A stretch of 32,645 nucleotides of DNA from Alphaproteobacteria bacterium RIFCSPHIGHO2_12_FULL_66_14 (GCA_001767945.1 MEMN01000046.1:679-33323), one strand, 5' to 3'. Positions 6,523-30,790 are shown, numbered from the stretch's first letter. Translations and numbers: made by a program. The notes: generated by a model from the letters alone, not told the origin.

Positions 6523-6536
6523 TTGACGTGCATCAA
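6523..6536. promoter_or_regulatory. Fnr/Dnr/Nnr-type operator
   Basis: TTGACGTGCATCAA is a near-perfect match to the Fnr-family palindrome TTGAT-N4-ATCAA. It lies between the divergent narK (67 bases upstream of its ATG) and the Crp/Fnr-like gene (115 bases upstream of its ATG). The distance suits activation of narKG by an oxygen- or NO-responsive Fnr-family protein. The TTG at its left end is the spurious start of the extended ORF given in the track. Confidence 0.75.
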
Positions 6537-6568
6537 GCCCGGTATCGGCGGCGGGAAACTTCGGCTAT

Positions 6569-6614
6569 CCGTTCTCTTTTGCGAACGGAGCCCGTTCACA
6601 TTTGGTAAGAACGG
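6569..6614. repeat. Array of four CCGTTC/GAACGG half-sites
   Basis: The sequence runs CCGTTC-N8-GAACGG-N3-CCGTTC-N11-GAACGG, that is two consecutive inverted repeats of the same hexamer in the 5' region of the Crp/Fnr-like gene. Either pair could also fold as a 6-bp hairpin in the mRNA leader. An operator array is the more natural reading because four equal half-sites are grouped within 46 bases. The binding protein is unknown. Confidence 0.5.
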
Positions 6615-6651
6615 CGCGTCGAGGCTTCAGGCGGGAGGGCAGGACCAGATC

Positions 6652-7335: not shown

Positions 7336-7469
7336 CGGGCGCGGCGGAACGGAGAACGGACTGCGACCAGGATGTGATCCTCGCCTGAACGGCACGGCAC
7401 GTCTTTGCACAAGCATACGGGTCAACGCGGATGATCAACGGCGTCTTCGGCCCAAATTGGGGCATGCCC

Positions 7470-7485
7470 ATCACCCATTGATCAC
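7470..7485 (+). promoter_or_regulatory. EPS box 1, upstream of FkbM methyltransferase
   Basis: ATCACCCATTGATCAC matches the recurring box ACCACAGRTTGRTCAC at 13 of 16 positions, including the whole TTGATCAC core. It ends 62 bases before the GTG start at 7548. A possible -10 element, TAGCAT, begins 23 bases after the core. The rest of the 212-base gap (7336-7547) holds only a second, inverted TTGATCAT (7431-7438) without matching flanks. Confidence 0.55.
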
Positions 7486-7547
7486 ACGCGCTTCCCCATT
7501 GTCTCTCTAGCATCGACGCTCCGTTTGTCCTCTCGGGAGAAATCGCC

Positions 7548-8324
7548 GTGGCAGTCAGCGACACTAAGGAGCCTACGCAGCGCGAAGTAGCGCTCGGGCA
7601 GGCGCTCAAGGCCCGTCTCAAGGACGTGCTGCGACCGCTGGCTTCAGCTCTGCCGGATCTCTCGGGCCTGCCCTCGTGGCCACGCACGATGGCAATGCTT
7701 CAGCGTGGCGGCTTTTCTCCGACCACCGTCTTCGACATCGGCGTCGGCTACGGCACCTTCCCGCTCTACCGGGCGTTCCCAAGCGCATTCTATCATCTGG
7801 TCGATCCAGCGCGGGAGTCGCTCGCCTATATGCAAAAATTGTCGCGCCGATTGCGCTGTGAAATTCACCCCGTCGCTCTCGGTGATCACGATGGAGAGGC
7901 AGTGCTCGAAGTCCGCGCCGACATCCAGGAATCGACCCTGCTCGAGGAAGTCGGGCAGCGGCAGGTGCGCCGCATCGACCGAGTCCCGATCCATCGGTTC
8001 GACACCCTATTCGGCCCGATTGCACGGCCCGCTTTTTGCAAGATCGACGTGCAAGGCGCCGAGCTGATGGTGCTGGCCGGCATGACCGGGCGACTCAGCG
8101 AGATTGATGCCTTGGTGATCGAGACCAGCACCATCGCCACAGTCAAGGGTGGGGCAGAGGTCCATGACATCGTGCGCTTCCTGGGTGAACACGGATTTTT
8201 CCTGGCCGATGTCGTCGGCCTGCGCCGTCGGCCGCTCGATGGCGCAACGGCGCAGCTCGATCTGCTGTTCGTGCCCAACAATGCTGCGCCGCGCCATGAT
8301 CGGCGTTGGTCGGCCCGCCTCTGA
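7548..8324 (+). CDS. FkbM-family SAM-dependent methyltransferase
   Basis: This 258-residue protein has the FkbM methyltransferase layout: a SAM-binding glycine loop (VFDIGVGYGTFPLYRAF, about 62-78), the acidic end of beta-2 (HLVDPARESL), and the FkbM-typical block FCKIDVQGAELMVLAGM near residue 165. Family members O-methylate natural products and surface glycans. In this context a sugar of the exopolysaccharide is a likely target, though the sequence does not show the substrate. The GTG start is preceded by CGGGAGA at good spacing. It stands alone between a box-type promoter and a hairpin terminator, so it is probably monocistronic. A second FkbM gene lies at 29951-30709 and the two are clearly diverged. 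Confidence 0.87.
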   Translation: MAVSDTKEPTQREVALGQALKARLKDVLRPLASALPDLSGLPSWPRTMAMLQRGGFSPTTVFDIGVGYGTFPLYRAFPSAFYHLVDPARESLAYMQKLSRRLRCEIHPVALGDHDGEAVLEVRADIQESTLLEEVGQRQVRRIDRVPIHRFDTLFGPIARPAFCKIDVQGAELMVLAGMTGRLSEIDALVIETSTIATVKGGAEVHDIVRFLGEHGFFLADVVGLRRRPLDGATAQLDLLFVPNNAAPRHDRRWSARL

Positions 8325-8342
8325 GAATTCAGCGTCCGATCC

Positions 8343-8370
8343 ATTGCGGCGTGAGACCGCAATCTTTATA
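8343..8370 (+). terminator. Rho-independent terminator after FkbM gene
   Basis: A perfect 7-bp stem, ATTGCGG/CCGCAAT, with a 7-base loop is followed by CTTTATAATT. It begins 19 bases after the methyltransferase stop. The T tract is short and interrupted, so termination may be partial. Confidence 0.6.
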
Positions 8371-8530
8371 ATTGTTGCGTCAACGGTGGCCAAGCTGTGA
8401 CCATGCGATGTGTGGTGCTGGCAGGCTTGCACTGCGACTGTGCACGCGCAACATCTGGCCAGGTTCGAATTTCGTCCACGTGCCTGCGATGAGTTGTCAA
8501 AATTGAACGACATGCGGAACCGAAACATTC

Positions 8531-8554
8531 CTGTGTCGTTTTGCTGTGTCGTTT
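8531..8554 (+). repeat. Direct repeat CTGTGTCGTTT, two copies
   Basis: Two exact 11-base copies start 13 bases apart (8531 and 8544), about 80-100 bases before the lipoprotein start. OmpR/PhoB-type regulators often bind direct repeats, so this could be the autoregulatory site of the response regulator two genes downstream; this is inference. Elsewhere in the roughly 310-base gap 8325-8633 I see the terminator above and no convincing gene. Confidence 0.35.
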
Positions 8555-8633
8555 GTGTGATCGGGTCCACGGTATGCCGCAAACCCGCCACACGACTCGC
8601 CTAGGCCTCTCACAACGCTCTTGCGGAAGTAAA

Positions 8634-9212
8634 ATGAGGATCGGAAGCCTGATGAAGCAGACCGTGGGGGTCGGACTACTGCTCTTGTCGGGGTGTGAGG
8701 TTGCTCGCAATGCACGGGACGACTTCGTCCGGTTGACGTCGTCCCAACCTACATCCTCACAAGCGCGCAAGACCACCTCGGCCCCGCCTCAAGTGGCATC
8801 CAGGGCGCGGAGCACGTCGTCACCGGCAACGGACACCTTCGAACCCTCTATTATGGGCAACGGCGCGACCCCCGCGCCCACGACCGAGGCGAACGATACG
8901 CCGACCATAGAACTTGCCGGCACCAGCGAGACCAAGCTACGGGCGCTGCTTGGCGCCCCAACAAGCGAGGAGAATCAGCCACCAGGAAAGCGGTGGCAGT
9001 ACCGCGACGGGAAATGCACGCTGGACGTCCAGCTCTACCCGGACGTCCAAACGAAGCAGTTTGGCACTCTAGCGTACAAGGTGAAGAGCGATGACAACAC
9101 AGATGAAGGACAACGTCTCTGCTTGGCCCAGCTCCAATCCCGGCTTCAGGCCCGACGCAAACGACGCCACCACGGACCGGCGAATCCACCTCGCCTTCGT
9201 CGAGGACGATGA
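8634..9212 (+). CDS. Small putative lipoprotein of unknown function
   Basis: About 192 residues from ATG 8634 (GGAAG 4 bases upstream); ATG 8652 with its own GGAAG is an equal alternative. The N-terminus is a lipoprotein signal (QTVGVGLLLLSGC, lipobox LSGC). A long Ser/Thr/Pro/Ala-rich linker follows (about 35-95), then a compact domain of about 70 residues (TKLRALLGAPTSEE, WQYRDGKCTLDVQLYP, FGTLAYKV). The end is arginine-rich. I do not recognise the family. The compact part has the look of a small periplasmic domain, with LxxLLGxP and a WxY-C-LDVxLYPD motif. Its last 122 bases overlap the response regulator in another frame, so the two are probably translated from one message. The protein could be an accessory sensor of the two-component system, but nothing in the sequence proves that. 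Confidence 0.72.
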   Translation: MRIGSLMKQTVGVGLLLLSGCEVARNARDDFVRLTSSQPTSSQARKTTSAPPQVASRARSTSSPATDTFEPSIMGNGATPAPTTEANDTPTIELAGTSETKLRALLGAPTSEENQPPGKRWQYRDGKCTLDVQLYPDVQTKQFGTLAYKVKSDDNTDEGQRLCLAQLQSRLQARRKRRHHGPANPPRLRRGR

Positions 9213-9891
9213 TGACTACCGCGAGGCCGTGACAGGCGAACTGGGCGATCACGGTTTTGTGGTCGAAAGCTTCGGCGATGGCCCGGCCTTGCTTGACTCT
9301 TTTGCCGCGGGCGGGGAAGCAGAAATCATCCTGCTCGACTGGAACCTGCCCAGTGTATCAGGCATCGATCTCCTGCCGAAGCTTCGCCGCAATGGGATAG
9401 CGCTGCCGGTTGTCTTCCTCACCGGGCGGTCGCAGCCAGTCTACGAGAAGCTCGCCTTCGACCGCGGTGCGCTCGACTTCGTGGACAAGGCTCGCGGTGT
9501 GCCGATCCTGGCGCAACGGCTGAGGTTGATCGCCGAATCGGCCAAGAAGCCCGCAGAGCCGGAATTCGAAGGTAACTTCCATTGCGGTCGCCTGATGCTC
9601 AAGCCTGGCGTGAGCCGTGCCTATTGGGACGATTCCGATATCAATCTCACACTAACCGAATTTAAGATCGTGCATCTTCTGGCCTCGAATGTGGGCCGCT
9701 ACGTAACCTATCGTGCCGTCTACGACTGCATGCATTACGTAGGCTTTATCGCTGGGAGCGGCGAAAATGGCTATCGAACAAACGTCCGCTCCTGCATCAA
9801 GCGGATACGAAACAAGTTCCGCACGATCGATCCAGACTTCGCCGAAATCGACAATTACCAGTCCTTCGGCTACCGATGGGGCAAGACCTAG
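9091..9891 (+). CDS. OmpR/PhoB-type response regulator (ChvI-like)
   Basis: 266 residues. The receiver domain (about 30-150) has the acidic pocket FVEDDDDY, the phospho-acceptor aspartate in IILLDWNLPSVSG, the conserved threonine in VVFLTGRS and the lysine in DFVDKARG. The C-terminal winged helix (about 170-265) includes LTLTEFKIVHLLASN and NGYRTNVRSCIKRIRNKF, resembling ChvI-class regulators. The start at ATG 9091 is supported by AAGGTGAAG; apart from ATG 9103 no in-frame start exists before the receiver domain. The first 30 or so residues are therefore overprinted on the lipoprotein C-terminus. The last 125 bases overlap the histidine kinase. A role in controlling the adjacent exopolysaccharide genes is plausible because ChvI relatives regulate succinoglycan in rhizobia, but it is not shown here. 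Confidence 0.93.
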   Translation: MTTQMKDNVSAWPSSNPGFRPDANDATTDRRIHLAFVEDDDDYREAVTGELGDHGFVVESFGDGPALLDSFAAGGEAEIILLDWNLPSVSGIDLLPKLRRNGIALPVVFLTGRSQPVYEKLAFDRGALDFVDKARGVPILAQRLRLIAESAKKPAEPEFEGNFHCGRLMLKPGVSRAYWDDSDINLTLTEFKIVHLLASNVGRYVTYRAVYDCMHYVGFIAGSGENGYRTNVRSCIKRIRNKFRTIDPDFAEIDNYQSFGYRWGKT

Positions 9892-11413
9892 CTCCCGAAC
9901 ACCGAGCCGGCGATCACCATTCCGCCGGCTCGCCGCGTCACTGACGCTTAAACTGGTTGCTCTGGTAGGCATCTTCGTTGCCCTGCCGGTGGTGCTCTAC
10001 TTTCAGTTCGAAAGCGCCGATCGGCAGATGCGCGAGTTGGTCACGCGCGCCATCCAGGACCGCAGCGGCCTGATTGCCGACGCGCTCAGGCCGGCATTGA
10101 AAGATGCGGACACCGCGGCACCCCTGGCACTCAATAAGGAGCTTGCCCGATACAGCAGCGATGGCACAGTGCTGAAGCTGATGTTCCAGCCCGCCGCCGA
10201 GCGCGCGGCGGGCCGCTTCTACTTTGTTGCCTCGGCCCCACAGATCCGCAGTGATGCCGTTGCCGCCGAGCTCGACGAGCTCGACCATCGCGGTATCCTG
10301 CAGCGCCTCTCTCAGGCATGCATGTGGGACGCCACCGACGAGATCCGCTATCGGCAAGCCGACGGCACCGTGGAGCTCCTGACCTCGATCATTCCGATCC
10401 GTGTCCGCGACAGCTGCTGGGTATTGACCTCGACACATGTCACGTCGGAATTCCTCAATACCTCGATCGGGCGACCATATTGGGAAACGCGAGAGATTCG
10501 CGTGGCGGCGATCATCTACCTCGTCGGCGCCGTTCTGGCGTTCCTGGTGGCGTTCAGCATCCGGCTCAGCCTTCGCCGCTTCCGTACGGTCGCCAACGAA
10601 ATCAGCCAGGGCCGAATCGGCGACCATGCTTTCGCCCGCCGCAACGTCGTGCCCGAGTTGTCGAGCGTGGCGGGCGACTTCGACAAGCTGGTGCATGATC
10701 TGAGACGTGTTTCGCGCCAGATCAGGCAGTCCGCCGAGGACAATGCACACTCCTTCAAGACACCGCTTGCCGCCATCCAATCGGCGTTGCAACCGGTACG
10801 GCGCGCCATCCCCGAGAACGACCCCCGTGCGCGGCGAGCTATCGAGATCGTCGATTCCTCGCTGACACGGCTACTCGCTCTGGTGAATGCCGCGCAGCAC
10901 TATGACATCAGCACTGCAGAGATGCTCGAGGCACCGCGCCTGCCGATCGACGTCACCGAAGTGGTCGGCGAAGCCGTCCGCCACTTCCGCGAGATCCTGG
11001 CCAGCCGCGACATCCGCCTGATCCGCCGCCTCGACGATGGCGTCGTGGTCCGCGCTGGCCGAGGCATGCTTGAACTCGTGCTGCAAAACGTGCTGGAGAA
11101 CGCGACCAGCTTCTCGCCGCCAGGCAGTACCATCGTGGTGACGCTGACCGCCAACGAGGAAACGGCCGAACTGCAGATCGACGATGAAGGGCCGGGGATC
11201 GATCCGGCCAAGATCGACCATGTCTTCGAGCGCTACTTCTCGTCACGCCCCAGAGATGCCGAGGGCAGTGGCGAGCCCGGCGAGCATTCCGGCCTCGGGC
11301 TCTGGATGGTGCGCCGGAATGTCGAGGCGCTCGGTGGTCAGGTAAGCGCTTCCAACCGAATCGGCGGTGGCCTTTCGGTTGTCATTGTTCTGCCGCGCAG
11401 TGGTCATCGGTAG
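9767..11413 (+). CDS. Membrane sensor histidine kinase (ChvG/PhoQ-like)
   Basis: 548 residues. A hydrophilic Ser/Thr/Pro/Arg-rich N-terminus (1-55) precedes transmembrane segment 1 (LTLKLVALVGIFVALPVVLY, about 59-79). A periplasmic sensor region (about 80-240), a second membrane segment (VAAIIYLVGAVLAFLVAFSI, about 245-266) and a HAMP-type linker follow. The phospho-acceptor histidine is in EDNAHSFKTPLAAIQ. The ATPase domain has the N box (LVLQNVLENATSF), G1 (DDEGPGIDP), F box (VFERYFSS) and G2 (HSGLGLWMV). ATG 9767 has GGGAGCGGCGAAA just upstream, and the frame offers no other ATG, GTG or TTG before the first membrane helix. The gene therefore overlaps the response regulator by 125 bases. 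It should phosphorylate that regulator. Confidence 0.93.
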   Translation: MAIEQTSAPASSGYETSSARSIQTSPKSTITSPSATDGARPSSRTPSRRSPFRRLAASLTLKLVALVGIFVALPVVLYFQFESADRQMRELVTRAIQDRSGLIADALRPALKDADTAAPLALNKELARYSSDGTVLKLMFQPAAERAAGRFYFVASAPQIRSDAVAAELDELDHRGILQRLSQACMWDATDEIRYRQADGTVELLTSIIPIRVRDSCWVLTSTHVTSEFLNTSIGRPYWETREIRVAAIIYLVGAVLAFLVAFSIRLSLRRFRTVANEISQGRIGDHAFARRNVVPELSSVAGDFDKLVHDLRRVSRQIRQSAEDNAHSFKTPLAAIQSALQPVRRAIPENDPRARRAIEIVDSSLTRLLALVNAAQHYDISTAEMLEAPRLPIDVTEVVGEAVRHFREILASRDIRLIRRLDDGVVVRAGRGMLELVLQNVLENATSFSPPGSTIVVTLTANEETAELQIDDEGPGIDPAKIDHVFERYFSSRPRDAEGSGEPGEHSGLGLWMVRRNVEALGGQVSASNRIGGGLSVVIVLPRSGHR

Positions 11414-11423
11414 CAACCAGCGG

Positions 11424-11439
11424 ACCACAGGTTGATCAC
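11424..11439 (+). promoter_or_regulatory. EPS box 2, upstream of manC
   Basis: ACCACAGGTTGATCAC matches the box consensus at all 16 positions and ends 66 bases before the manC ATG. The 17 bases 11426-11442 recur exactly, inverted, at 28658-28674 ahead of the minus-strand sugar operon. A weak -10-like TAGCTT starts 24 bases after the core. Confidence 0.65.
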
Positions 11440-11505
11440 TGGTCGCTGGGCCGGGTGGTGCCTAGCTTCCGGCTTGGCGAACGTCTCGCTGCGGCAGGGA
11501 GTTCC

Positions 11506-12972
11506 ATGGATACCGTCACCAGCCTCGCGCGATTCCAGCAACTGGGCTCGGCGCAGATTCATCCCGTCATCCTGTCGGGCGGCGCCGGTACACGGCTGTG
11601 GCCGCTCTCGCGCGCGGCATATCCCAAGCAGCTTCTAAAGCTCGTTTCGGACCGCTCGTTGCTGCAGGAGACCGCGGCGCGCGGTTTGGCCGACGTCGGC
11701 TTCGCGCCGCCTGTCGTCGTCTGCAACGAGGACCATCGCTTCCTGGTCACCGACCAACTTGAGGAGATCGGCATCAGGCCTCAGGTGATCCTGCTGGAAC
11801 CGCTGGCCCGCAACACCGGGCCGGCCATCGCCGCGGCGGCGCTGTGGCTTCAGGCACGTGATCCCGACGCCCTGATGCTGGTGCAGCCCTCTGACCACGT
11901 CATTGGTGCGCTGCCCGAGTTCCACGGCGCAGCCATGCGCGGACTGGCCGCCGCCCAAGCCGGCCGTCTCGTGACGTTTGGCATCAAACCCGGCCGACCC
12001 GAGACGGGCTACGGCTACATCCAGGCAAGCGACCCACTCGAGGGTATCGACGACGGTGTGCTGGGCGTCGACCGGTTCGTCGAAAAGCCCGATCGGGCCA
12101 CCGCGCAGCGCTTCATCGACAGCGGCGCATTCTACTGGAACAGCGGCATCTTCCTCCTGAGCGCACGCACTTATCTCGACGAACTGGCCCAGATCAACGC
12201 CGCGATGTTCGAGGCCTGCCGAGCCGCCGTCACGGAGGGCCGCGAAGAAGCCAGTTGTGTGCGCCTCGACGTCCGGCATTTCGCCCAAGCGCCCGCTCTG
12301 TCGATCGACCACGCCGTGATGGAACACACCGAGCGTGCCGCCGTCGTGCCAGTGGACATGGCCTGGAGCGACGTCGGCTCCTGGTCGGCTTTGCAGGGCA
12401 TCGGCGCCGCTGACGCGGAGGGCAATGTCGTGCGCGGGGACGTGATCCACCAAGGAGTGAAGAACTGCTACTTGCGTTCGGAGGGGCGCCTGGTTGCCGC
12501 GATCGGACTGGAGAACATCACCGTGGTGGCGACGGACGACGCCGTCCTGGTTGCCGGTGCCGGCGAAGCAAATGCGGTTTCTCGTGTCGTCGAGACCCTG
12601 CGCCAGCAGAACCGGCCGGAGCCCCACCAACACACGACCTGTCATCGCCCCTGGGGCGACTACCGCACGGTCGACTCCGGCGAGCGCTTCCAGGTTAAAC
12701 GCATAACGGTGAAGCCGGGGGGCAAACTCAGCCTCCAGAAGCACTACCACCGCGCAGAGCATTGGGTCGTGGTCCGTGGCACGGCGATCGTGCAGTGCGG
12801 CGAGGAGCGCAGGCTGCTGCACGAAAATCAGTCGATCTACATCCCGATCGGCACCGAACATCGCCTGGAGAACCCGGGCAAACTGCCCCTGCAGCTGATC
12901 GAAGTGCAGTCCGGCGCCTATCTTGGTGAAGACGACATCGTGCGGATGTCGGACACCTACGGCCGCGTTTGA
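11506..12972 (+). CDS. manC: Mannose-1-phosphate guanylyltransferase / mannose-6-phosphate isomerase, type II
   Basis: A 488-residue bifunctional enzyme of the ManC/AlgA/XanB class. It interconverts fructose-6-phosphate and mannose-6-phosphate and makes GDP-mannose from mannose-1-phosphate and GTP. The N-terminal nucleotidyltransferase has the signature HPVILSGGAGTRLWPLSR and the sugar-binding FVEKPDRATAQ. The C-terminal cupin carries the isomerase motif QKHYHRAEHW. The length is normal for the fused type. ATG 11506 is preceded by GCAGGGAG; the track's earlier start lacks this. Its product feeds Gmd and Fcl (25414-27442) to yield GDP-L-fucose. The phosphomannomutase that links the two activities is not in this window. 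It is followed by a 27-base tandem duplication and the next box, so it is probably transcribed alone. Confidence 0.95.
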   Translation: MDTVTSLARFQQLGSAQIHPVILSGGAGTRLWPLSRAAYPKQLLKLVSDRSLLQETAARGLADVGFAPPVVVCNEDHRFLVTDQLEEIGIRPQVILLEPLARNTGPAIAAAALWLQARDPDALMLVQPSDHVIGALPEFHGAAMRGLAAAQAGRLVTFGIKPGRPETGYGYIQASDPLEGIDDGVLGVDRFVEKPDRATAQRFIDSGAFYWNSGIFLLSARTYLDELAQINAAMFEACRAAVTEGREEASCVRLDVRHFAQAPALSIDHAVMEHTERAAVVPVDMAWSDVGSWSALQGIGAADAEGNVVRGDVIHQGVKNCYLRSEGRLVAAIGLENITVVATDDAVLVAGAGEANAVSRVVETLRQQNRPEPHQHTTCHRPWGDYRTVDSGERFQVKRITVKPGGKLSLQKHYHRAEHWVVVRGTAIVQCGEERRLLHENQSIYIPIGTEHRLENPGKLPLQLIEVQSGAYLGEDDIVRMSDTYGRV

Positions 12973-13023
12973 GGCCGGCCCGATGCCCGTGATGTCTGGG
13001 GCCGGCCCGATGCCCGTGATGTC
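12973..13023 (+). repeat. Tandem duplication, 24-base unit with 27-base period
   Basis: GGCCGGCCCGATGCCCGTGA plus TGTC occurs at 12973-12996 and again without mismatch at 13000-13023, separated by TGG. It begins directly after the manC stop and abuts EPS box 3. An exact copy implies a recent slippage duplication or a selected double site. Confidence 0.9.
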
Positions 13024-13036
13024 CCGGATTGGTCAC
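13021..13036 (+). promoter_or_regulatory. EPS box 3, upstream of the export operon
   Basis: GTCCCGGATTGGTCAC matches 12 of 16 box positions with an intact TTGGTCAC core. It lies 101 bases before the OPX lipoprotein ATG, further than the other boxes. A possible -10, TATGTG, begins 24 bases after the core. Its first three bases overlap the tandem duplication. Confidence 0.45.
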
Positions 13037-13137
13037 ACCGCCCGAACCTGGTCGCGCGTTATGTGATTGAGCTGGCTCGCGGCTCCCATCTCTCGGGGTG
13101 CGCGGGGCCAGCGTCATCCTGCCTACAGGTGAAAGAC

Positions 13138-13803
13138 ATGCTGGCTGACACCTTCCCTATCGCCTTCATGCGCCGCTGGCGCCTGCTGTGGGCGATGCTT
13201 GCGCTCGCGTTCCCTTTGGCCGCCTGCGAGACCGACCCGACCCCGATTGTTGAAGACTCGCCGTCCGCCGAAGCGGGTCTTCAGCTGACTTCGACGAGCA
13301 TGCCCGGTGGCCGATCCCGCGCTGGCTCGGGCAACGCCATCTCCGACTACCGGCTCGGACCAAATGACCGAACTCGGATCATAGTCTTCGGCCAACCTGG
13401 TCTCACCGGAGAGTTCGTGCTCGATGGCGCTGGTGTACTGGCCTTCCCGCTGATCGGCAGCGTGCCCGCCAACGGCATGACGCCCCGCGAACTCCAACAG
13501 GCGATTGCCGCCAAGCTCGATCCGCAGTACCTGCGCGACCCCAACGTGACGGTCGAGGTACTGACGCGCCGGCCCTTTTACGTTCTGGGCGAGGTACAGA
13601 AACCCGGCAACTATCCCTACGTCACCGGCATAACCGCGCTCCACGCCGTGGCGATGGCCGGCGGATATACCTATAGAGCCAAGACCACCGGGTACTACAT
13701 CAAGCGTCTCAATGGTGACGGCAAGATGGTCCGCGTCGTCGCCAAACCCGAGACGATTATCCGCCCAGGCGACACCCTCGAAGTACGCGAGCGGTACTTC
13801 TGA
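13138..13803 (+). CDS. Short OPX polysaccharide export lipoprotein (Wza/GumB-like)
   Basis: 221 residues from ATG 13138, which has AGGTGAAAG just before it. The lipoprotein signal ends in FPLAAC (cysteine about 30), so it should be anchored to the outer membrane. A Poly_export domain follows (about 70-145; DYRLGPNDRTRIIVFGQPGLTGEF, quoted in part as a recognition block), then a single SLBB-like domain (about 150-215; FYVLGEVQKPGNYPY and AMAGGYTYRAKTTGYYIKR), closing with RPGDTLEVRERYF. E. coli Wza is about 380 residues and ends in the helix that forms the outer-membrane pore; this protein stops before such a helix. It therefore probably needs another outer-membrane channel. Its stop overlaps the start of the autokinase gene (TGATG), which indicates translational coupling. 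Confidence 0.92.
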   Translation: MLADTFPIAFMRRWRLLWAMLALAFPLAACETDPTPIVEDSPSAEAGLQLTSTSMPGGRSRAGSGNAISDYRLGPNDRTRIIVFGQPGLTGEFVLDGAGVLAFPLIGSVPANGMTPRELQQAIAAKLDPQYLRDPNVTVEVLTRRPFYVLGEVQKPGNYPYVTGITALHAVAMAGGYTYRAKTTGYYIKRLNGDGKMVRVVAKPETIIRPGDTLEVRERYF

Positions 13804-16112
13804 TGGTGCATATGCCCGACCAGCCCCAGCGGTTGACGCGCCGCGGCGCCTTCCTGCGCCCGGTGCCGTCAACGGCCCGCTACTATCCGGCCGAGCCGGC
13901 GTTGCGTGTGGCAACGTCCGGCGAGGCGGAGGGATTTGCCGAGACACTGCGCAAGTTGTGGCGGCAGCGGGGGCTGATCCTCGCCTGTACGGCGGTATTG
14001 GGCGGCGTGGCCGTGGCAGCGGCGTGGTCGATGCCTTCCTACTACGTCTCGGAGGCAAGGGTCCTTGTCGGCATCCAGGCGCCACGGGTGCTCAACGTCG
14101 AAGCCGTTCTGGCCGATATCAGTCCGGACGCCGAGCGCGTGCAGAACGAGGGCTTCATCCTCCAGTCCCGCGACATCGCCCGGCAGGTGATCGACCAGCT
14201 GAAGCTCAAGGACGACCCCGAATTCAATCCCGAGCTGCGCCAACCATCCCTGTGGGCGCGCCTTTTCGACTTTCGCGGCATGCTGCCCAAAACTGTTACT
14301 GCGTGGTTCGATCGCCTGCTGCCGCCAAAGCGGGTCGAGGCGCCGCTGCCCGACAGTGCGCTGGCAGTGATCCGCAACGATCGGATGATCGACATCCTGC
14401 TGTCGCACGTCGACGTATCGACGCTCGGGCGCAGTCACGTGCTCAGCATCAAAGCCGAGGCACAGAAGTCCGCGACCGCCGCCAGTGTCGCCAATGCGCT
14501 GGCTGAGCGCTACCTCGAGCACCAGCGCAGCGAGAAGATCGCGTCGATGGACAGGGTCGACAAATTCCTGCTGGGACGGATCGCCGAGTTGCGCGGGCAG
14601 GTTCGCAAATCCGACCAGGCCGTCGAGGACTACCGACGATCCAACGACCTCTACAAGAGCGCCGGCAGCGGCGTCACCGCCCAACAGCTGACCGAACTCA
14701 ACACCCAGCTTCTCACCGCGCAGACGGCCAAGGCAGAAGCCGAGTCAAAACTCCACGAGGCCCAGGAGATGCGCAAGGGCGGGCTTGACGGCGAGAGCGT
14801 GCCCGAGGTGCTGCGTTCGCCGCTGATCGCCGCGCTCAAGCAGCAGCTTGCCGATTCCGAAAGGCGCGGCGCCGAACTGTCGGCTTCGCTCGGCAACCGT
14901 CACCCCTCCATGGCGAAGGCCCAGGCCGAAATTGCCAACATTCAGCGCCGCGTCAATGCTGAGGTGGCGAAGGTCATCGATGGACTGTCGCGTGAAGCCC
15001 GGTCGGCCGACGCAAGGTACGAAGCGCTGGCCAAGAACTTCGAGCGCCTGAAACTGCAAATGGGAGCCGTGAACGACCAGTCGATCCAGCTCGAAGCGCT
15101 GGAGCGCGACGCGGTGGTGAACCGGAATCTGCTGGAGGCCATGCTGTCTCGCGCCAAGCAGACGATAGGGGCGGAGGACATTCTACAAGCCAACGCCAAG
15201 CTCGTGTCGCCAGCCGCCCCTGCGGCAGCTCCGAGCTATCCGCCGAAGTCACTGATCGCCCTGCTCGGCGTGGCCGGTGGCCTGATGGTCGGCGCGGCAA
15301 TTGCGCTGTTTCGCGAGAATGGCGACCACACATTCCGGCGCGCCGATCAGATCGAGGCGGTGACCGGGCTGCCGGTGATCGCGATGGTCCCACAACTCAG
15401 CGGGCGCGCGCCGCCCGCGATGCAGCCGCTGCGGCAACCGACTTCTGCCTATAGTGAGGCGTTGCGTCGGCTTCATATTGGCGTCGAACTCTCCGAGGCG
15501 GCCGAGTCGCCACGCACGATCCTGTTCAGCTCGGCCACCCCGGCGGAGGGGAAATCGGTCATGGTAGCCTCCCTTGGCCGCCTACTGGCCAGCAATGGCA
15601 AGCGCGTACTGCTGATCGATTGCGACTGGCGCAACCCCCGCCTGCATCAGATCTTCCATTGCTCCAACCGCGAGGGATTGGCCAGCCTGTTGACCGACAA
15701 GCCGGCGAACCTCGACGAGGTCATTCACCACGATGCCATATCCGGTCTCGACGTCATGACGGCCGGTCCATGGAGTCCCCGCTCGGCCCACCTCCTGAGT
15801 TCGGACCGTATGCGCCACCTGCTCGAGGCCGTCGCCGCGCACTATGAGTTCGTGCTCGTGGACACATCTCCCGCCTTGGTTACAGCCGACGTGCTGGCGC
15901 TGGCGCGCGTGGTCGAAAAGGTCGTCTTCGTGGTGCGCTGGGGCCACACCCGTCAGGAAAACGTGCTCGATGCTCTGAAGCAGATCATAGAAGCGCAAGG
16001 CGATGTTGCCGGAGTGGTGATGTCGCGCGTTGTGTCAAAGCAGTACCGTCAATACGGCCATCGCGACCCGTTCTATGAATTCGTCCGGCCAAGTCGGGCC
16101 ACCGTCGGGTGA
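13803..16112 (+). CDS. Polysaccharide co-polymerase with tyrosine autokinase domain (Wzc/ExoP-like)
   Basis: 769 residues. An N-terminal Wzz domain has its first membrane helix at about 60-80 (LILACTAVLGGVAVAAAWSM). A long periplasmic coiled-coil region follows (about 220-420), then the GNVR-type segment and the second helix (SLIALLGVAGGLMVGAAIAL, about 480-500). The cytoplasmic BY-kinase carries Walker A (SSATPAEGKS), Walker A' (VLLIDCDWRNP) and Walker B (FVLVDTSP). The tail QYRQYGHRDPFYEF has three tyrosines as candidate autophosphorylation sites, a smaller cluster than in E. coli Wzc. It should set chain length and couple polymerisation to export through the OPX lipoprotein encoded just upstream. 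No Wzb-type phosphatase gene is nearby. Confidence 0.94.
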   Translation: MVHMPDQPQRLTRRGAFLRPVPSTARYYPAEPALRVATSGEAEGFAETLRKLWRQRGLILACTAVLGGVAVAAAWSMPSYYVSEARVLVGIQAPRVLNVEAVLADISPDAERVQNEGFILQSRDIARQVIDQLKLKDDPEFNPELRQPSLWARLFDFRGMLPKTVTAWFDRLLPPKRVEAPLPDSALAVIRNDRMIDILLSHVDVSTLGRSHVLSIKAEAQKSATAASVANALAERYLEHQRSEKIASMDRVDKFLLGRIAELRGQVRKSDQAVEDYRRSNDLYKSAGSGVTAQQLTELNTQLLTAQTAKAEAESKLHEAQEMRKGGLDGESVPEVLRSPLIAALKQQLADSERRGAELSASLGNRHPSMAKAQAEIANIQRRVNAEVAKVIDGLSREARSADARYEALAKNFERLKLQMGAVNDQSIQLEALERDAVVNRNLLEAMLSRAKQTIGAEDILQANAKLVSPAAPAAAPSYPPKSLIALLGVAGGLMVGAAIALFRENGDHTFRRADQIEAVTGLPVIAMVPQLSGRAPPAMQPLRQPTSAYSEALRRLHIGVELSEAAESPRTILFSSATPAEGKSVMVASLGRLLASNGKRVLLIDCDWRNPRLHQIFHCSNREGLASLLTDKPANLDEVIHHDAISGLDVMTAGPWSPRSAHLLSSDRMRHLLEAVAAHYEFVLVDTSPALVTADVLALARVVEKVVFVVRWGHTRQENVLDALKQIIEAQGDVAGVVMSRVVSKQYRQYGHRDPFYEFVRPSRATVG

Positions 16113-16117
16113 GCTCC

Positions 16118-18563: not shown

Positions 18564-18575
18564 AGGGTCCTGATG

Positions 18576-18591
18576 ACCCCAACTTGATCAC
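18576..18591 (+). promoter_or_regulatory. EPS box 4, upstream of the WcaJ-type operon
   Basis: ACCCCAACTTGATCAC matches the box at 13 of 16 positions with a perfect core, 66 bases before ATG 18658, the same distance as for manC. A weak -10-like stretch (CAATCT) begins about 25 bases after the core. Confidence 0.55.
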
Positions 18592-18657
18592 AACACCGGA
18601 TGCGACCGGCGTGGACAATCTAGCCATATCGTCGGGATCCACCTGTGGGAGCGCCAG

Positions 18658-20157: not shown

Positions 20158-20176
20158 GCGGCGCGGCGGACCGCCG

Positions 20177-23975: not shown

Positions 23976-25448
23976 GCGCAGGTCCTGCCTTGTCTCCGGC
24001 CACGCCAGCAGCACCAGCAGGATCGCCAGGAGAGCCATGGCACCGACTGCCGTCACCGCCTGCACAGACACCTCGCGCGACATGAACGCGCGCGCAGTCC
24101 ATGCTGCCGCGGCGGCGGCCAGGGCAGCCGACGCCGGCGGTGCGACAGCACGCCAAGTGTCGGCCACGGAGACCGGACCGCGGCGCGTCGCCAGCCAGAA
24201 GGCAACGGGCGTGCGGAGGACGAGGCCCACGATCGCCAGCGCGGCCGCGATGCCGACGGCGCCCCAGGGCAGACCGGCAATGATCGCGGCCAGGCAAAGC
24301 GCGGAATCGATCAGCGTGGCCCGCAACATCTCGCCGGTCCGGTCCTGCGTCAGGTAGAGGAGGCCCATCGTCAGCAGTACCGGTAGAAAGGTGGCTGATA
24401 CGCTGAACAGGATGGCAAGTGGCACGGCCTCCAGCCAGGAAGGCCCGAAGAGAATCTCGACCACCCAATCGGCCGCGACCGCCACAACGGCGAAGGCCGG
24501 CATGGTGAGCAGGCCCAGCTTCTGGACGATCTGGCGAAACATGGCCCGGTAACGTTCCGGCTGGTCGGCGAGCCTGCTGAGCGCCGGCATGCCCGCGGCA
24601 TAGACCGGCGCGTTGATGGTGTTCACCGGGAGCAGCAGCAGCCGCGAGGTACGCTCGTAGAGGCCGAGCACCGCCGGACCCCACAGCCAGCCGATCAGGA
24701 TCTGATCGAAGCTGCGTGCCAACGCCGTGGCGAGGCCGCTACCCGTCACCGACGCGCCGAAATGCAGCAATCCGCGCATGCCCGTGGAAGCGGGTCGTCC
24801 CGGCCGCCAGCGGCAAATCACCCAGCTGCCGACCATCAACACGGCAGGCGATACCAGCCGTTGCACAACAAGCGCCCAATAGCCTTTGCCGGCCAAGGCG
24901 AGTGCGATGGCTACGGCAAAGCCTGCATAATCGGCCACGGTTTCAAGGCCAGCTATGGCGGCGAAACGCATCTGCCGCCGCAGCAAGGCCCAATGCTGCA
25001 CGGTGAAGCCGCTCAGCACAAAGCCCAGTGCCAGCCAGCGCGTGACGGGGCCGAGTTCGGATTGGTCGTAGAATGCCGCCAGCAGTGGCGCCGCCAGCAC
25101 CAACGCCACGGCAAGCAAGATGCCGGCGGCGGCATTGATCCAGAACAACGCAGAGACCTGGGAATGCGCAAGATCGGGCTTCTGGATGGTCGCCGACGAG
25201 AGCCCGAGATCCTTCAGAAGGTCGAGGACAAGGCCAACCGCCGCGATCATCGCGAGCAGGCCGAAGGCTGCAGGTGGCAGCAGCCGCGCCAGCACCACCA
25301 GCGTGGCCATCTGCCCCAGCACGCGCACCATCTGCGCTCCCAGGAGAACAGCGCCGCCGTGCCGCGAACGGCGACCGATTTCGGCGACGAGATGGTCCGT
25401 CGCGAGCTCGGCCTCAGGCGACCGCGCGTCGCTTTTCGGAAGCGACAT
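23916..25448 (-). CDS. Polysaccharide flippase of the MOP family (Wzx/WzxC-like)
   Basis: 510 residues with about 12-14 membrane helices. The block RLLPPAAFGLLAMIAAVG and SSATIQKPDLAHSQVSALFW are characteristic of the WzxC branch. It should flip the undecaprenyl-linked repeat unit across the inner membrane. ATG 25448 was chosen because the longer frame in the track begins with low-complexity sequence inside the fcl gene. That start overlaps fcl by 35 bases, so it is the last gene of a minus-strand operon (glycosyltransferase-gmd-fcl-wzx). Its stop lies 60 bases inside the convergent beta-helix gene, leaving no room for a terminator between them. Confidence 0.92.
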   Translation of the reverse strand: MSLPKSDARSPEAELATDHLVAEIGRRSRHGGAVLLGAQMVRVLGQMATLVVLARLLPPAAFGLLAMIAAVGLVLDLLKDLGLSSATIQKPDLAHSQVSALFWINAAAGILLAVALVLAAPLLAAFYDQSELGPVTRWLALGFVLSGFTVQHWALLRRQMRFAAIAGLETVADYAGFAVAIALALAGKGYWALVVQRLVSPAVLMVGSWVICRWRPGRPASTGMRGLLHFGASVTGSGLATALARSFDQILIGWLWGPAVLGLYERTSRLLLLPVNTINAPVYAAGMPALSRLADQPERYRAMFRQIVQKLGLLTMPAFAVVAVAADWVVEILFGPSWLEAVPLAILFSVSATFLPVLLTMGLLYLTQDRTGEMLRATLIDSALCLAAIIAGLPWGAVGIAAALAIVGLVLRTPVAFWLATRRGPVSVADTWRAVAPPASAALAAAAAAWTARAFMSREVSVQAVTAVGAMALLAILLVLLAWPETRQDLRSGAYRAAILVRRRRAILEP

Positions 25449-26385
25449 TGTCGAGATACCAGCGGTAGGTAACTTCGAGGCCAGTTTGCAATGGCGTGTG
25501 TGCCCGCCAGCCGAGCGAGGCGGCATAGGACGTGTCGACCATCTTGCGCGGCGCGCCGTCCGGGCGCGATGTGTCGAAACGGACACCGCCCTTGTAGCCC
25601 ACGACCTTGCAGATCAGCCCGACCAGGTCCCGGATCGGCACGTCCGATCCGGGACCGAGATTGACGATCCCCTCGTCGGAATAATTTTGCATGAAGAAGA
25701 CCATGCCGTCGGCCGCGTCATCGACGAACAGAAACTCGCGACGCACCGCGCCGGTCCCCCAGACTTCCATCGACGGCGCGTTGGAAATCTTGGCCTGATG
25801 CGCCTTCACGATCAAAGCCGGCACGACATGGCTCTGCATCAAATCGAAGTTGTCTCCCGGTCCGTAGAGATTGGTCGGCATGACGGAAACGAAGTCGCAG
25901 CCGTACTGACGGCGGTATGCCTGGCCGAGCTTGATGCCGGCAATCTTGGCGACGGCATACCATTGGTTGGTTGGCTCGAGCGGACCGGTGAGCAGGGCGG
26001 ACTCCGGGATCGGCTGCGGCGCCAGCCGCGGATAGATGCAGGAGGAACCAAGCAGCATCAGCTTCTCGACACCAGCGCGCCTCGAGGCCTCGACGACGTT
26101 CGACTGGATCATCAGGTTGTCGTAGATGAACTCGGCCGGCCGGGTATCGTTTGCGTAGATGCCCCCCACCCTTGCTGCCGCCAGGAACACCGCCTGCGGC
26201 TTGGCCTCGCGCATCCATCGATCGAGCTGATCGGCGCGACGCAGGTCGACCGACTCGCGGGGCGCCGCGATAACGTCGCAGCCCTCACCCTGCAGGCGTC
26301 GCACCAGAGCGCTGCCCACCAGGCCGCTGTGTCCGGCGACCCAGACGCGCTTATTGCGCAGCGTGTAGGACGGGTTGATGGACAT
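25414..26385 (-). CDS. fcl: GDP-L-fucose synthase
   Basis: 323 residues, the normal length. It catalyses the NADPH-dependent 3,5-epimerisation and 4-reduction of GDP-4-keto-6-deoxymannose to GDP-L-fucose. Seen: the nucleotide-binding loop [16 protein letters not shown] at the N-terminus, LGSSCIYPR, and the catalytic tyrosine and lysine in [11 protein letters not shown] near 137. [11 protein letters not shown] is also typical. GGGGAA stands 6 bases before ATG 26385. The gene overlaps gmd upstream and the flippase downstream by 35 bases each. Together with ManC and Gmd it gives a route from mannose-1-phosphate to GDP-fucose, so the polymer probably contains fucose. Confidence 0.95.
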
Positions 26386-27442
26386 GACGATTCCCCATTC
26401 CTTTCAAGACGATGCGGTCGGCCTCGACCATTTCTGCCACGAGTTGCTCGAAGGTCGTTCGGTGACGCCAGCCCAGCTTGGTGAGGGCTTTCGCCGGATC
26501 CCCCAGCAGCAAGTCGACCTCCGTCGGGCGCCGATAGGCAGGATCAAGGGCCACGAGTACGTCGCCCGTCCGGTTGCAGCAGCCCTGCTCGGCCTCGCCG
26601 GAACCGCGCCATTCGATGCTGCGACCGATCTGGCGGAAGGCGAGTTCGACGAATTCGCGCACCGTATGGGTCTCGCCGGTGGCGAGCACGTAGTCATCGG
26701 GCTGCTCCTGCTGGAGGATCTGCCACATTCCCTCGACATAGTCGCGCGCATGACCCCAGTCCCGCTTGGCGTCGAGGTTGCCGAGATAGAGCCGCTCCTG
26801 GTAGCCGCACTCGATCGCGGCGACCGCACGGGTGATCTTGCGGGTGACGAAAGTCTCGCCGCGAATGGGCGACTCGTGATTGAACAGGATGCCGTTGGAG
26901 GCATGCATGCCGTATGCCTCGCGGTAATTCACCGTGATCCAGTAGGCATAGAGCTTGGCCACTGCATAGGGGCTGCGCGGATAGAACGGTGTCAGTTCAC
27001 GCTGCGGCGTCTCGCGCACCTTGCCGAAGAGCTCGGAAGTCGATGCCTGGTAGAACCGAACATGGTCCTGCATGTGCAGGATGCGGATTGCCTCGAGCAG
27101 GCGCAGGGTGCCCAGCGCGTCGGTGTTTGCCGTGTACTCCGGCGACTCGAAACTCACCTGCACGTGGCTTTGCGCCGCCAGATTGTAGACCTCGGTCGGC
27201 TTCACTTCGGCGAGCAGCCTGATCAGGTTGGTCGAGTCGGTCATGTCGCCGTAGTGCAGGAACAGTCTGACGTCGCTTTCGTGGCGGTCGCGGTAGAGGT
27301 AGTCGATGCGCCCTGTATTGAGCGAGGAGGAGCGTCGCTTGATGCCATGGACGACGTAGCCACGGCCGAGCAGGAAATCGGCGAGATACGCGCCATCCTG
27401 GCCGGTTATCCCGGTGATGAGGGCGGTCTTGTCGTTTGGCAT
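26351..27442 (-). CDS. gmd: GDP-mannose 4,6-dehydratase
   Basis: 363 residues, close to the family norm. It converts GDP-mannose to GDP-4-keto-6-deoxymannose, the precursor of fucose, rhamnose and perosamine. The dinucleotide loop [19 protein letters not shown] opens the protein. The catalytic region has STSELFGKV and [15 protein letters not shown] (Tyr-x3-Lys), and [14 protein letters not shown] is typical of the family. ATG 27442 follows GGAAGGTCG; the track's 516-residue version extends into the next gene and is rejected. The start lies 16 bases after the upstream glycosyltransferase stop. Confidence 0.96.
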
Positions 27443-27458
27443 GCTGGCGACCTTCCGT

Positions 27459-28640
27459 TCAGGAGAAGACGATCTGTTCGGCAACCCGGTCCCATGAATA
27501 GGCACCAAGCACGTGGCGTTGCGCGGCCATGGCCATGCGCTCGAGTCGAGCCGGATCAGAAATGGCGCTGAGGATCGCGGCGGCCAACGCGGCGGGGTCG
27601 GCACGATCGACCAGGAACCCGTGGCGTCCCCCGTCGACCAGTTCGGGCAGGCCGTTGCGCGCCAACCCCATGACCGGCGTGCGCGAGGCCATGGCCTCCA
27701 GATAGACCTGGCCCCACGGATCGTTGAGCATCGGCTGCACGAGCAGGGTCGACTCGCGGTAGAGGCGCTGCAGTTCGGACCACGGCAGGCGGGGACGGAA
27801 ATCGATGCCATGCCGCGATCCGATGAACTCGCGACTGCGCTCATCCCCGACGATGGTGAGAGCGACGTCGTCACGTTGGCGTCGGACCTCGGCAAAGGCA
27901 TCGAGCAACAGCATCCCGCCTTTGGCCTGGAACAAGTGCTTGGCGACGAATAGCAGCGCCGGTCGCGAATAATCCTTGGGCCCGAACCACGGCTCGATCG
28001 CCCCCATGCCGGAGCCGACTGCGGTCACACGATCGGCCGGCAGCCCGTAATGGGCAATGAGGTTGTCGCGCACATAGGCGCCGAAGGTGAAGATGTGCGC
28101 CAACCCGGCAAGTGCCTCGCGCTCGGTGTCCTCGAAGGCATGCAATGCCCTGGCGGTGTAACGGTCGGCATGGACGTGGTAGCGGCGCGCCAGCGCCCAG
28201 CTATGGTCGCAATAAAGATAGTGCTTCGTGCCGCGGATCAGGTCGCTCGCCGGCAAGTCGAGGGTCCCGGTGTGCAGCACGTGACGTATGCCGAGATGCT
28301 CCGCCTGCCTTGTCACTTCGTCGGCCATGCGGCGACGTGCGCGACGGCTGCGCAGGATCTGCTCGCCGCTGACCGGTCGACCGTGGCCAGCCAACATGTC
28401 GCGCGCCGCAATGCCAAGCTTTGCCAGTTTACCGAGGCGCGGGTAGATCGCCTCGACGACGACGCCCAGCCGCTCCATGGCCTTCGACACGTTCGCCGGC
28501 GCTCCCGACCAGGAGCGCGGGTCGCGCGGGTCGCCGAACACGCAGCTCACCGCCACGCGCTCGAAGCGCGGCACGTGGAAGGCTTGTGGCCTGTCGGCCA
28601 TGAGCGGGGCGGCAACGTTCATGATGAACCATCGAACCAT
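27459..28640 (-). CDS. GT4 glycosyltransferase
   Basis: 393 residues if ATG 28640 is used; ATG 28622 and ATG 28601 are alternatives and none has a clear ribosome site. If EPS box 5 places the transcript start near 28627, the shorter 28601 start (MADRPQ) becomes the most likely. The GT-B donor domain is clear: [33 protein letters not shown], and the E-x7-E type region [38 protein letters not shown] is also typical of GT4. It leads the operon with gmd, fcl and the flippase, which makes a GDP-mannose or GDP-fucose donor plausible but unproven. Confidence 0.9.
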
Positions 28641-28660
28641 CGTCCGACGCTTCGCGGCCA

Positions 28661-28676
28661 GTGATCAACCTGTGAC
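28661..28676 (-). promoter_or_regulatory. EPS box 5, upstream of the minus-strand sugar operon
   Basis: Read on the minus strand, GTCACAGGTTGATCAC matches the box at 14 of 16 positions. The 17 bases CACAGGTTGATCACTGG here are identical to those of box 2. The core ends 20, 38 or 59 bases before the candidate starts 28640, 28622 and 28601. No good -10 element was found at the usual spacing. Confidence 0.6.
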
Positions 28677-28710
28677 TACCCGGAAGGCTCGCCCGATCGC
28701 CTTGCGCGAC

Positions 28711-28726
28711 ACCACAGATTGGTCAC
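28711..28726 (+). promoter_or_regulatory. EPS box 6, upstream of plus-strand glycosyltransferase
   Basis: ACCACAGATTGGTCAC matches the box at all 16 positions. AATACT, the best -10-like hexamer among the seven sites, starts 23 bases after the core. Together with box 5, fifty bases away and inverted, it forms a divergent promoter region between two glycosyltransferase genes. Confidence 0.62.
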
Positions 28727-28823
28727 CGTGGCGTCGCGCATGTTCGCCAATACTCAGTGGCACATGCACGGATCCATCGACCTGTTCGAGGAAGACTTGG
28801 CCGCCACGGAAGAGACACGCACC

Positions 28824-29954
28824 GTGGCGAACAAGAAGCGCGCGCTTCTGTTTTTCTGTCCCGACGTCACGGATGCCAGCACTCTGAAGCGCGTTCAGCA
28901 GTTCACCGACCACGGTTACAGCGTCACGGTGTTCGGCTTCCGTCGCCAGCGATACAACAGCAGCTATCAGCCACCGTGGCCGCATGTACCGCTCGGCCTG
29001 ACCAGCGACGGACGTTACGGCCAGCGGCTGAGCGCGTTGTTGCGTGCCATTCCGACGATCCTGGCCAACCGTCACCTTCTGAAGGATGCTTCGGTCTTCT
29101 ACGCGCGCAACATCGATCAGCTCCTGCTGGCCATGTTGGCTCGAATCGTCGCCTTCTCGCGAGCGCCCCTGACCTACGAGGTGCTCGACATTCCACCGAT
29201 CCTGATGCGACGCGGTCTCGTACCTGGGCTGATCCGGGCCATCGAGCGACTCTGTCTGCGTCGAACGCGGATGCTGGTCCTTTCCTCACCCGGCTTCCAC
29301 CGCAACTTCTATGACGCCGTCCAGCACTATCGCGGCGAGTGGTTCCTGCTGGAAAACAAGCTGCACCCCTCTATCTCTCGCCGTGCCGCGGCACTGGCGC
29401 CTGGCGGAAGACGCCGGCCATGGGTCGTCGGCTATTTCGGGTTGATCCGCGGCGAGGAGACATTCGACCTGATGACCCGGTTGGCCGAGCGGTTGCAGGG
29501 GCGCGTGCTGTTCAAGTTCCGCGGCGTTCTCACCACCGTCGACAGCAAGAAGTTCGACGCCGTCCTGCGGCGTTGTCCGAATATCGTCTACGGCGGCCCA
29601 TACCTGCCTCATCAGGACCTCGAGGAGCTCTACGGCGATGTCGACTTTGCCTGGGCGCTCGACCTCGAACATGCAGACCACAATTCGCGCTGGCTGATGC
29701 CCTGTCGCTTCTATGAGGCTGGCTACTTCGGCGTGCCCTGCCTGGCGGTACGCGGCTTCGAGGTCGGGACGGCGCTCGAGAAGCACGACATCGGCTGGAC
29801 ATTCGAAACGCCGCTGGAGGAATCACTCGTGCGATTCTTCGAGCAATTGACGCCGGAGGCCTACGACCATGTCCGCGCGCGCCTGGGTGCGGCGCCTGCA
29901 AGCATGTTCGTTGCGGGCGAGGACGTCGCCCGGCTGTGCGCCATGCTTCGCTAG
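28824..29954 (+). CDS. Glycosyltransferase, GT4-like
   Basis: About 376 residues from GTG 28824, which has GGAAGAG 9 bases upstream and begins directly before the conserved first strand (KKRALLFFCPDVTDASTLKR). ATG 28740 and 28764 are possible but lack ribosome sites, and TTG 28719 lies inside EPS box 6. The N-terminal domain reads DHGYSVTVFGFRR; the donor domain has VVGYFGLIRGEETFDLM, GGPYLPHQDLEELY and PCRFYEAGYFGVPCLAV. It resembles acceptor-type glycosyltransferases of succinoglycan-like loci, a loose match only. Its TAG stop is shared back-to-back with the stop of the convergent methyltransferase. Confidence 0.85.
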   Translation: MANKKRALLFFCPDVTDASTLKRVQQFTDHGYSVTVFGFRRQRYNSSYQPPWPHVPLGLTSDGRYGQRLSALLRAIPTILANRHLLKDASVFYARNIDQLLLAMLARIVAFSRAPLTYEVLDIPPILMRRGLVPGLIRAIERLCLRRTRMLVLSSPGFHRNFYDAVQHYRGEWFLLENKLHPSISRRAAALAPGGRRRPWVVGYFGLIRGEETFDLMTRLAERLQGRVLFKFRGVLTTVDSKKFDAVLRRCPNIVYGGPYLPHQDLEELYGDVDFAWALDLEHADHNSRWLMPCRFYEAGYFGVPCLAVRGFEVGTALEKHDIGWTFETPLEESLVRFFEQLTPEAYDHVRARLGAAPASMFVAGEDVARLCAMLR

Positions 29955-30709
29955 GCCGCTGCCACGGCATCCCTGTTGACCATGACGCAGTCGAACTCCA
30001 CCAGGCGGAGCGAGCTGTCGCGGCTCACCGCATAGAGGCCGGTGATGTCGAAGCCACGGCCACCGAGGTAGCGAAGCGTATCCATGTAGTCCGGCATGCC
30101 CTTGTAGATGCCGATGACCGAAGCTTCGGTCTGCAGAGCCCGGACGGTTGGCAGGCTGTCATCGCCGCCGCGCAACACCTCGATGTCGAAGCCCTGTGTA
30201 TCGAGCTTCAGGTAGGGTCGGTCGAACCCGAGCCGCTCCTGCAGCACCGGCAGCACTACGTCGAGCGTGCGCACGGTGACTGTCTCCTTTGCACAGGGCA
30301 CGTTCAGCGCCGCGTAGTCGCGCACCTTGGCATTGTCGGGTTCGAGGAATGAACTGAACTGGTCCGACACCATGACGTTGATCGGCATGGCGCCGTCTTG
30401 ACTGCCAAGCGCATAGCCTTCGATGTGCCAGTTGCCGTCGTCGCGGCTGCGCTCCCGGAGCAGCTCGACGTGGCGCGCCACGGGCTCGAACGACACGATC
30501 AGGCCTTCATAGAGCACCCGCTGGCGCAGGAAATCATGGTACTGGCCGATGTTGGCACCGACGTCGAGGACGCAGTCGATGCGCTGTCTGATCAGCAATT
30601 CGCGAAGGTGCAGGGCGAAGTCGCGCTCACGCATCTCGCGCAAGGGCACGATGTCGTAGCCGAATGCCCGGCTGACTTTGAGCACCGAGTCCTTGACGAT
30701 CTTGAACAT
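29951..30709 (-). CDS. FkbM-family SAM-dependent methyltransferase
   Basis: 252 residues from ATG 30709, which follows GGAGAGAACGTC; the upstream ATG 30763 is less well supported. SAM-binding motif VLDVGANIGQYHDFL is near residue 43, VSFEPVARHVELL follows, and the FkbM block LKLDTQGFDIEVLRGG lies near 178. It probably O-methylates a sugar of the surface polymer; the target is not shown. The stop overlaps the convergent glycosyltransferase by four bases (CTAG). EPS box 7 precedes it by 65 bases. Confidence 0.87.
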   Translation of the reverse strand: MFKIVKDSVLKVSRAFGYDIVPLREMRERDFALHLRELLIRQRIDCVLDVGANIGQYHDFLRQRVLYEGLIVSFEPVARHVELLRERSRDDGNWHIEGYALGSQDGAMPINVMVSDQFSSFLEPDNAKVRDYAALNVPCAKETVTVRTLDVVLPVLQERLGFDRPYLKLDTQGFDIEVLRGGDDSLPTVRALQTEASVIGIYKGMPDYMDTLRYLGGRGFDITGLYAVSRDSSLRLVEFDCVMVNRDAVAAA

Positions 30710-30774
30710 GACGTTCTCTCCGCGCGACTTCGATTGCTGTGCTGCAGCATTCTTCAGAGACACCAGCCATGACA

Positions 30775-30790
30775 GTGATCATTCGGTGGT
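30775..30790 (-). promoter_or_regulatory. EPS box 7, upstream of second FkbM methyltransferase
   Basis: On the minus strand, ACCACCGAATGATCAC matches 14 of 16 box positions (core ATGATCAC, one change). It ends 65 bases before ATG 30709. A weak -10-like AATGCT begins about 24 bases after the core. Confidence 0.5.

Follow-up and report, generated by a model that had tools for sequence, protein, structure and literature searches.

Operators of the OmpR/PhoB family are typically direct repeats with a period of 10-11 bp. In Enterobacteria, the family member PhoB acts at the pho box, whose tandem 11-bp repeat takes the place of the -35 element. The OmpR-family CenKR system of Rhodobacter sphaeroides, which has envelope targets in cell division and Tol functions, also uses an 11-bp-spaced direct repeat (TGA-N8-TGA), placed upstream of the -35 at activated promoters and over the start at repressed ones (PMC9275681). 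A further OmpR-family pair, ChvG-ChvI (ExoS-ChvI), regulates exopolysaccharide (EPS) genes in rhizobia, and PMC9731502 cites an 11-bp-spaced GCC-N8-GCC site for ChvI of Sinorhizobium meliloti. Here, we analyze a 16-bp box that recurs ahead of EPS genes in a stretch of 32,645 nucleotides ("the window") from Alphaproteobacteria bacterium RIFCSPHIGHO2_12_FULL_66_14 (GCA_001767945.1, MEMN01000046.1:679-33323; C46:679-33323 in our contig numbering), part of a 4.46-Mb draft genome. In Reyranella, it serves as a cis-regulatory element of an EPS regulon. Its closest counterpart is the CenR repeat, and its 11-bp period is also that of the S. meliloti ChvI site. Judging from sequence comparisons, its copies are very probably the sites of an OmpR-family response regulator (RR) encoded at 9091..9891 (+), which would be phosphorylated by the neighboring histidine kinase (HK; 9767..11413, +) and activate EPS operons.

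A shared box at exopolysaccharide promoters

A first-pass annotation had proposed that seven copies of the box mark an EPS regulon, and both the enrichment of the box and its conservation at orthologous promoters bear this out. With up to three mismatches allowed, the window holds seven matches to ACCACAGRTTGRTCAC, compared with 0.64 expected from dinucleotide shuffles, and none of 100 shuffles reached seven. These lie at 7470(+), 11424(+), 18576(+), 28661(-), 28711(+), 30775(-) and 18634(-), the last of which looks like a chance match. A site at 13021(+) (GTCCCGGATTGGTCAC) has four mismatches to the consensus; we regard it as real because GCCCCGGATTGGTCACACC stands at the same place in orthologues. 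One conserved site, a reverse-oriented copy at 8386..8401(-) (GTCACAGCTTGGCCAC), had escaped the first-pass annotation and is discussed below with the regulator operon.

Six of the seven originally listed sites are good and are conserved at orthologous promoters. Box 1 (ATCACCCATTGATCAC, 7470..7485, +) precedes the FkbM gene FkbM1 and a -10 candidate, TAGCAT at 7508-7513; across 14 orthologues it is the top conserved 16-mer of that promoter (rank 1 of 155). Exact consensus matches are found in box 2 (ACCACAGGTTGATCAC, 11424..11439, +), ahead of manC with a -10 candidate TAGCTT at 11463-11468, and in box 6 (ACCACAGATTGGTCAC, 28711..28726, +), ahead of a 411-aa gene (the 28719 gene) with a -10 candidate AATACT at 28749-28754. 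Box 6 is also the best conserved 16-mer of its promoter (rank 1), and it diverges from box 5 (GTCACAGGTTGATCAC, 28661..28676, -), which heads a GT4-Gmd-epimerase-Wzx operon. Box 4 (ACCCCAACTTGATCAC, 18576..18591, +) precedes the gene for a WcaJ-type transferase, with a -10 candidate ACAATC at 18615-18620. In promoter alignments the conservation rank of the box was 4-6 ahead of WcaJ, manC and GT4 (n = 6 for the last). Ahead of OPX, box 3 (13021..13036, +; -10 candidate TTATGT at 13059-13064) ranked 46 in a region where upstream coding DNA is conserved too, and the box is plainly retained. The seventh site, box 7 (ACCACCGAATGATCAC, 30775..30790, -) ahead of FkbM2, is doubtful.

The Reyranella congeners that we compared include R. 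massiliensis 521, R. soli and R. aquatilis. In some of these (R. soli and relatives), two boxes lie 31 bp apart ahead of WcaJ (L071:10668/10699, L072:10749/10780 and L073:10571/10602).

Across the whole source genome, a refined pattern, RYCMCNNNTTGRTCAC, has 13 matches versus 2 for its reversed control. Six are in the window, two flank a paralogous RR on contig C39, one is on C227, and four are elsewhere. By our own reading of predicted frames, 10 of the 13 are non-coding and 3 lie in genes, so the pattern is concentrated ahead of genes rather than being as frequent inside them, an outcome that would have counted against the original proposal. The four remaining matches, C177:12412 (L012), located in a gap, and the intragenic C193:27935 (L013), C116:7939 (L170) and C217:13582 (L171), look like chance. 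Mismatch counting alone is noisy, because when the looser first-pass pattern was allowed two mismatches, 10 of its 16 genome matches fell outside the window EPS locus and two other convincing sites, and these were mostly intragenic. Such matches on C14, C59, C77, C134, C161, C223 and at C227:22076 were therefore set aside. Another sequence recurrent in congeners, ACGACAGGTTGATCAC, is intragenic, mostly within a conserved frame of ~250-325 aa, and was rejected as coding conservation.

Among 41 Reyranella genomes, RYCACANNTTGRTCAC has ~70 matches versus 2 for controls. A position matrix built on 35 orthologous sites (17.9 bits) detected 129 sites of at least 16 bits in 80 RR-flanking loci (1.33 Mb, fetched by regulator homology and partly overlapping the training set); the reversed matrix detected none. 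Aligned directly to itself, the matrix is positive at offset 11 only, revealing an 11-bp direct repeat, RYCAC-N6-RTCAC, with the period characteristic of OmpR/PhoB-family operators. Whole-matrix dyad scores are weak, palindromy being limited to the inner TGATCA, and the direct repeat dominates.

Promoter layout was assessed on 175 sites less than 75% alike over 56 nt. In 82 of the 128 cases counted (~9 expected), the best -10-like hexamer lies 22-24 bp downstream of the box, and no TTGACA-like signal was found in the expected -35 stretch of the same 175 sites. This places the box at about -51 to -36. On this sequence evidence, the layout is that of a predicted activator site overlapping or replacing the -35, as in the pho box. 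The half-site differs from that of the pho box, and the spacing between repeat and -10 is greater here by about one helical turn, taking the distance at the pstS pho box for comparison.

Association of the box with a neighboring regulator family

Five observations connect the box with the RR family: linkage, a paralogous pair, co-occurrence, promoter decay and a change in the recognition helix. The arrangement RR-HK-box-manC recurs throughout Reyranella and in Vineibacter, Telmatospirillum, Ferrovibrio, Niveispirillum and Nitrospirillum, together with more boxes preceding OPX and WcaJ; genes downstream of the boxes have undergone some rearrangement among these genera. A Hyphomicrobiales plasmid likewise carries boxes upstream of OPX and WcaJ and in the kinase-manC gap. 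RR identity is 48-66% in the other genera (Vineibacter to Nitrospirillum) and on this plasmid. Within the source genome itself, a paralogous RR-HK pair on C39 (L080:8312-14983) has boxes on both sides, the upstream one reversed and the forward one preceding genes for secreted GSDH-like and malectin/Calx-beta proteins.

Near-complete Reyranella genomes contain a mean of 2.0 boxes when the RR is present (n = 21) versus 0.17 when it is absent (n = 6; p = 0.0007, uncorrected for phylogeny). Loss of the RR is also accompanied by decay at an unlinked promoter. On C227, a box with one mismatch to the first-pass consensus (ACCACAGCTTGGTCAC, G000:C227:11130-11145, L082:6631) and a -10 hexamer, TATAGA, precede a gene for a small exported Tyr/Pro-rich protein (L082:6748-7098), followed by a leuA-like gene (7278-9104). 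An orthologous box is found in more than 10 congeners; both box and -10 are decayed in the RR-less genomes G031 (AGCACAGACTGCTCAC) and G025 (ACCACAGACCGGACGC). The reach of the box thus extends past EPS synthesis, to this small exported protein and to the secreted malectin/Calx-beta proteins.

The RR consists of a receiver domain with a conserved phosphoacceptor Asp and a winged-helix DNA-binding domain (Pfam Response_reg and Trans_reg_C), as expected for the OmpR/PhoB family. Residues D39, D40, D83, T111 and K133 and the recognition helix are invariant among 12 orthologues. Wherever boxes occur, the helix sequence GYRTNVRSxIKRIR is unchanged; in Azospirillum it reads RANVRAFIKRIR, and searches of three RR-bearing plasmids from that genus yielded 0, 0 and 1 box matches.

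Several observations weigh against assigning the boxes to this regulator or against individual sites. In a minority of the regulator loci, no box lies nearby. The co-occurrence is partly confounded, because the EPS cluster often disappears along with the RR and species are not independent. One genome without the RR (G020) has one box match, and a different genome, G022, has the RR (92% identity) with a decayed small-protein box. In the window, the -10 following box 5 is weak, and box 7 lies 12 bp from the start codon with no -10 in the expected place and no conservation found ahead of FkbM2 (rank 146, n = 3).

Alternative regulators

The first-pass annotation had named two candidates, an adjacent ChvI-like regulator and a Crp/Fnr-type protein. 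The adjacent RR is strongly favored by our analysis, and its identification as ChvI is not borne out. The source genome has a separate ChvI-ChvG pair on C197 (L244) in the order pckA-chvI-chvG-hprK-rapZ-EIIA-HPr-ahcY, with a kinase containing Sensor_TM1 and Stimulus_sens_1. The window RR is 30% identical to this ChvI; its locus lacks the pckA/hprK/rapZ synteny, and a domain profile search of the window kinase detected neither sensor domain. Together, these features rule out the window RR as ChvI. Binding of the boxes by the true ChvI on C197 would fit the control of EPS genes by ChvI in Sinorhizobium and the 11-bp spacing of its site, as reported in PMC9731502. However, the half-sites of the box are YCAC rather than GCC, and the box matrix agreed with neither published ChvI motif, GCC-N8-GCC or TTGC-N3-GCAA. 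ChvI-type matches (30% identity) also occur in RR-less genomes, where boxes are nearly absent, and boxes are concentrated around the RR family instead. We therefore regard control of the boxes by ChvI as very unlikely.

The Crp/Fnr-type protein (6523-7335) is adjacent in the window, and its best NCBIfam match, below cut-off, is FtrB. Regulators of the Crp/Fnr family bind inverted repeats (TGTGA-N6-TCACA or TTGAT-N4-ATCAA), whereas the box is an 11-bp direct repeat. The protein is present in 14 of 41 Reyranella genomes and missing from many box carriers, and no homologue accompanies the other EPS loci examined. Patchy, unlinked to the EPS locus and belonging to a family with a different operator architecture, it is rejected as the box-binding protein, a role we consider scarcely credible.

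Another unlinked regulator (CenR, a MucR-like protein or other) might bind the boxes, making the neighboring RR merely a fellow target. The CenR motif lends this some substance: the reverse complement of TGA-N8-TGA, TCA-N8-TCA, is contained in the box as YCA-N8-TCA. The box is longer and more specific, with AG..TTG between the half-sites, and the targets also differ, being EPS and surface proteins here rather than cell division and Tol. A recurrent reverse box upstream of the RR and a paralogous pair with its own boxes speak for the neighboring RR, which box loss and the change in recognition helix also follow. CenR is reported to be essential in Rhodobacter and conserved among alphaproteobacteria, and so it would not account for the loss of boxes in congeners in which only this RR is missing; absence of the RR from some congeners is a further difference from CenKR. 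An unlinked regulator is thus improbable, and binding by the neighboring RR remains our preferred explanation.

A proposed circuit and its genomic setting

For the neighboring RR, we propose that the membrane HK, responding to a presumed signal, phosphorylates its partner, which would then bind the RYCAC-N6-RTCAC repeat as a tandem dimer. From a position that overlaps the -35 region and extends just upstream of it, the RR would recruit RNA polymerase to promoters with no usable -35 and a -10 hexamer located 22-24 bp downstream of the box. This would switch on the EPS operons together with a small number of unlinked genes for surface proteins.

The reverse box suggests that the regulator also feeds back on its own operon. 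Among 70 non-redundant regions upstream of the RR, 29 have a minus-strand box and 3 a plus-strand box (1 and 0, respectively, with the reversed matrix). In the window, the box at 8386(-), a putative autoregulatory operator, lies 13 bp past the end of a TATAAT on the operon (+) strand. In 11 of 26 cases, a -10-like hexamer precedes the reverse box by 6-17 bp on the operon strand, a placement that is only suggestive. Inspection by eye of the strand carrying the reverse box showed no -10 that would mark a divergent promoter. Autoregulation is thus putative; that it is negative is our guess, by analogy with CenR-repressed promoters.

Ahead of the RR in this operon is a conserved gene at 8541..9212 (+) that accompanies the RR and HK in nearly all loci. 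It has no Pfam or NCBIfam matches, and its translation contains a lipobox-like LLLLSGC. We speculate that this lipoprotein-like product is a possible periplasmic partner of the kinase, whose activity it may modulate as ExoR does that of ExoS. The coordinates of the HK, which contains HisKA and HATPase_c domains, are those of the open frame, and its true start is probably near the end of the RR.

By Pfam order, the window begins with narG and a narK-type transporter (both minus strand), followed by the Crp/FtrB-like regulator, FkbM1, the lipoprotein-like gene, RR and HK. The EPS gene cluster (11455..28640) then comprises manC, OPX, Wzc, two glycosyltransferases, the WcaJ-type transferase, a glycosyltransferase, Wzy, a beta-helix protein and, on the minus strand, Wzx, epimerase, Gmd and GT4. 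The 411-aa gene, FkbM2 and a BBP2 porin complete the window.

Neither the regulator nor the box appears to have been described previously: the open-access papers that we searched yielded no account of either, of EPS regulation in Reyranella, or of a specific regulator-site pair for alphaproteobacterial EPS production such as the one proposed here. Tentatively, the lipoprotein, RR and kinase may constitute an undescribed envelope-sensing system with its own 16-bp box, acting independently of ChvI as a dedicated EPS and surface regulator in several alphaproteobacterial groups, autoregulated through the reverse box and extended by paralogues to other secreted matrix proteins. In many uncultured genomes, surface and biofilm genes can now be predicted by scanning for the box. 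ChvI need not be the route of EPS control in these bacteria; a separate regulator, with a CenR-like operator core, seems to be dedicated to this role.

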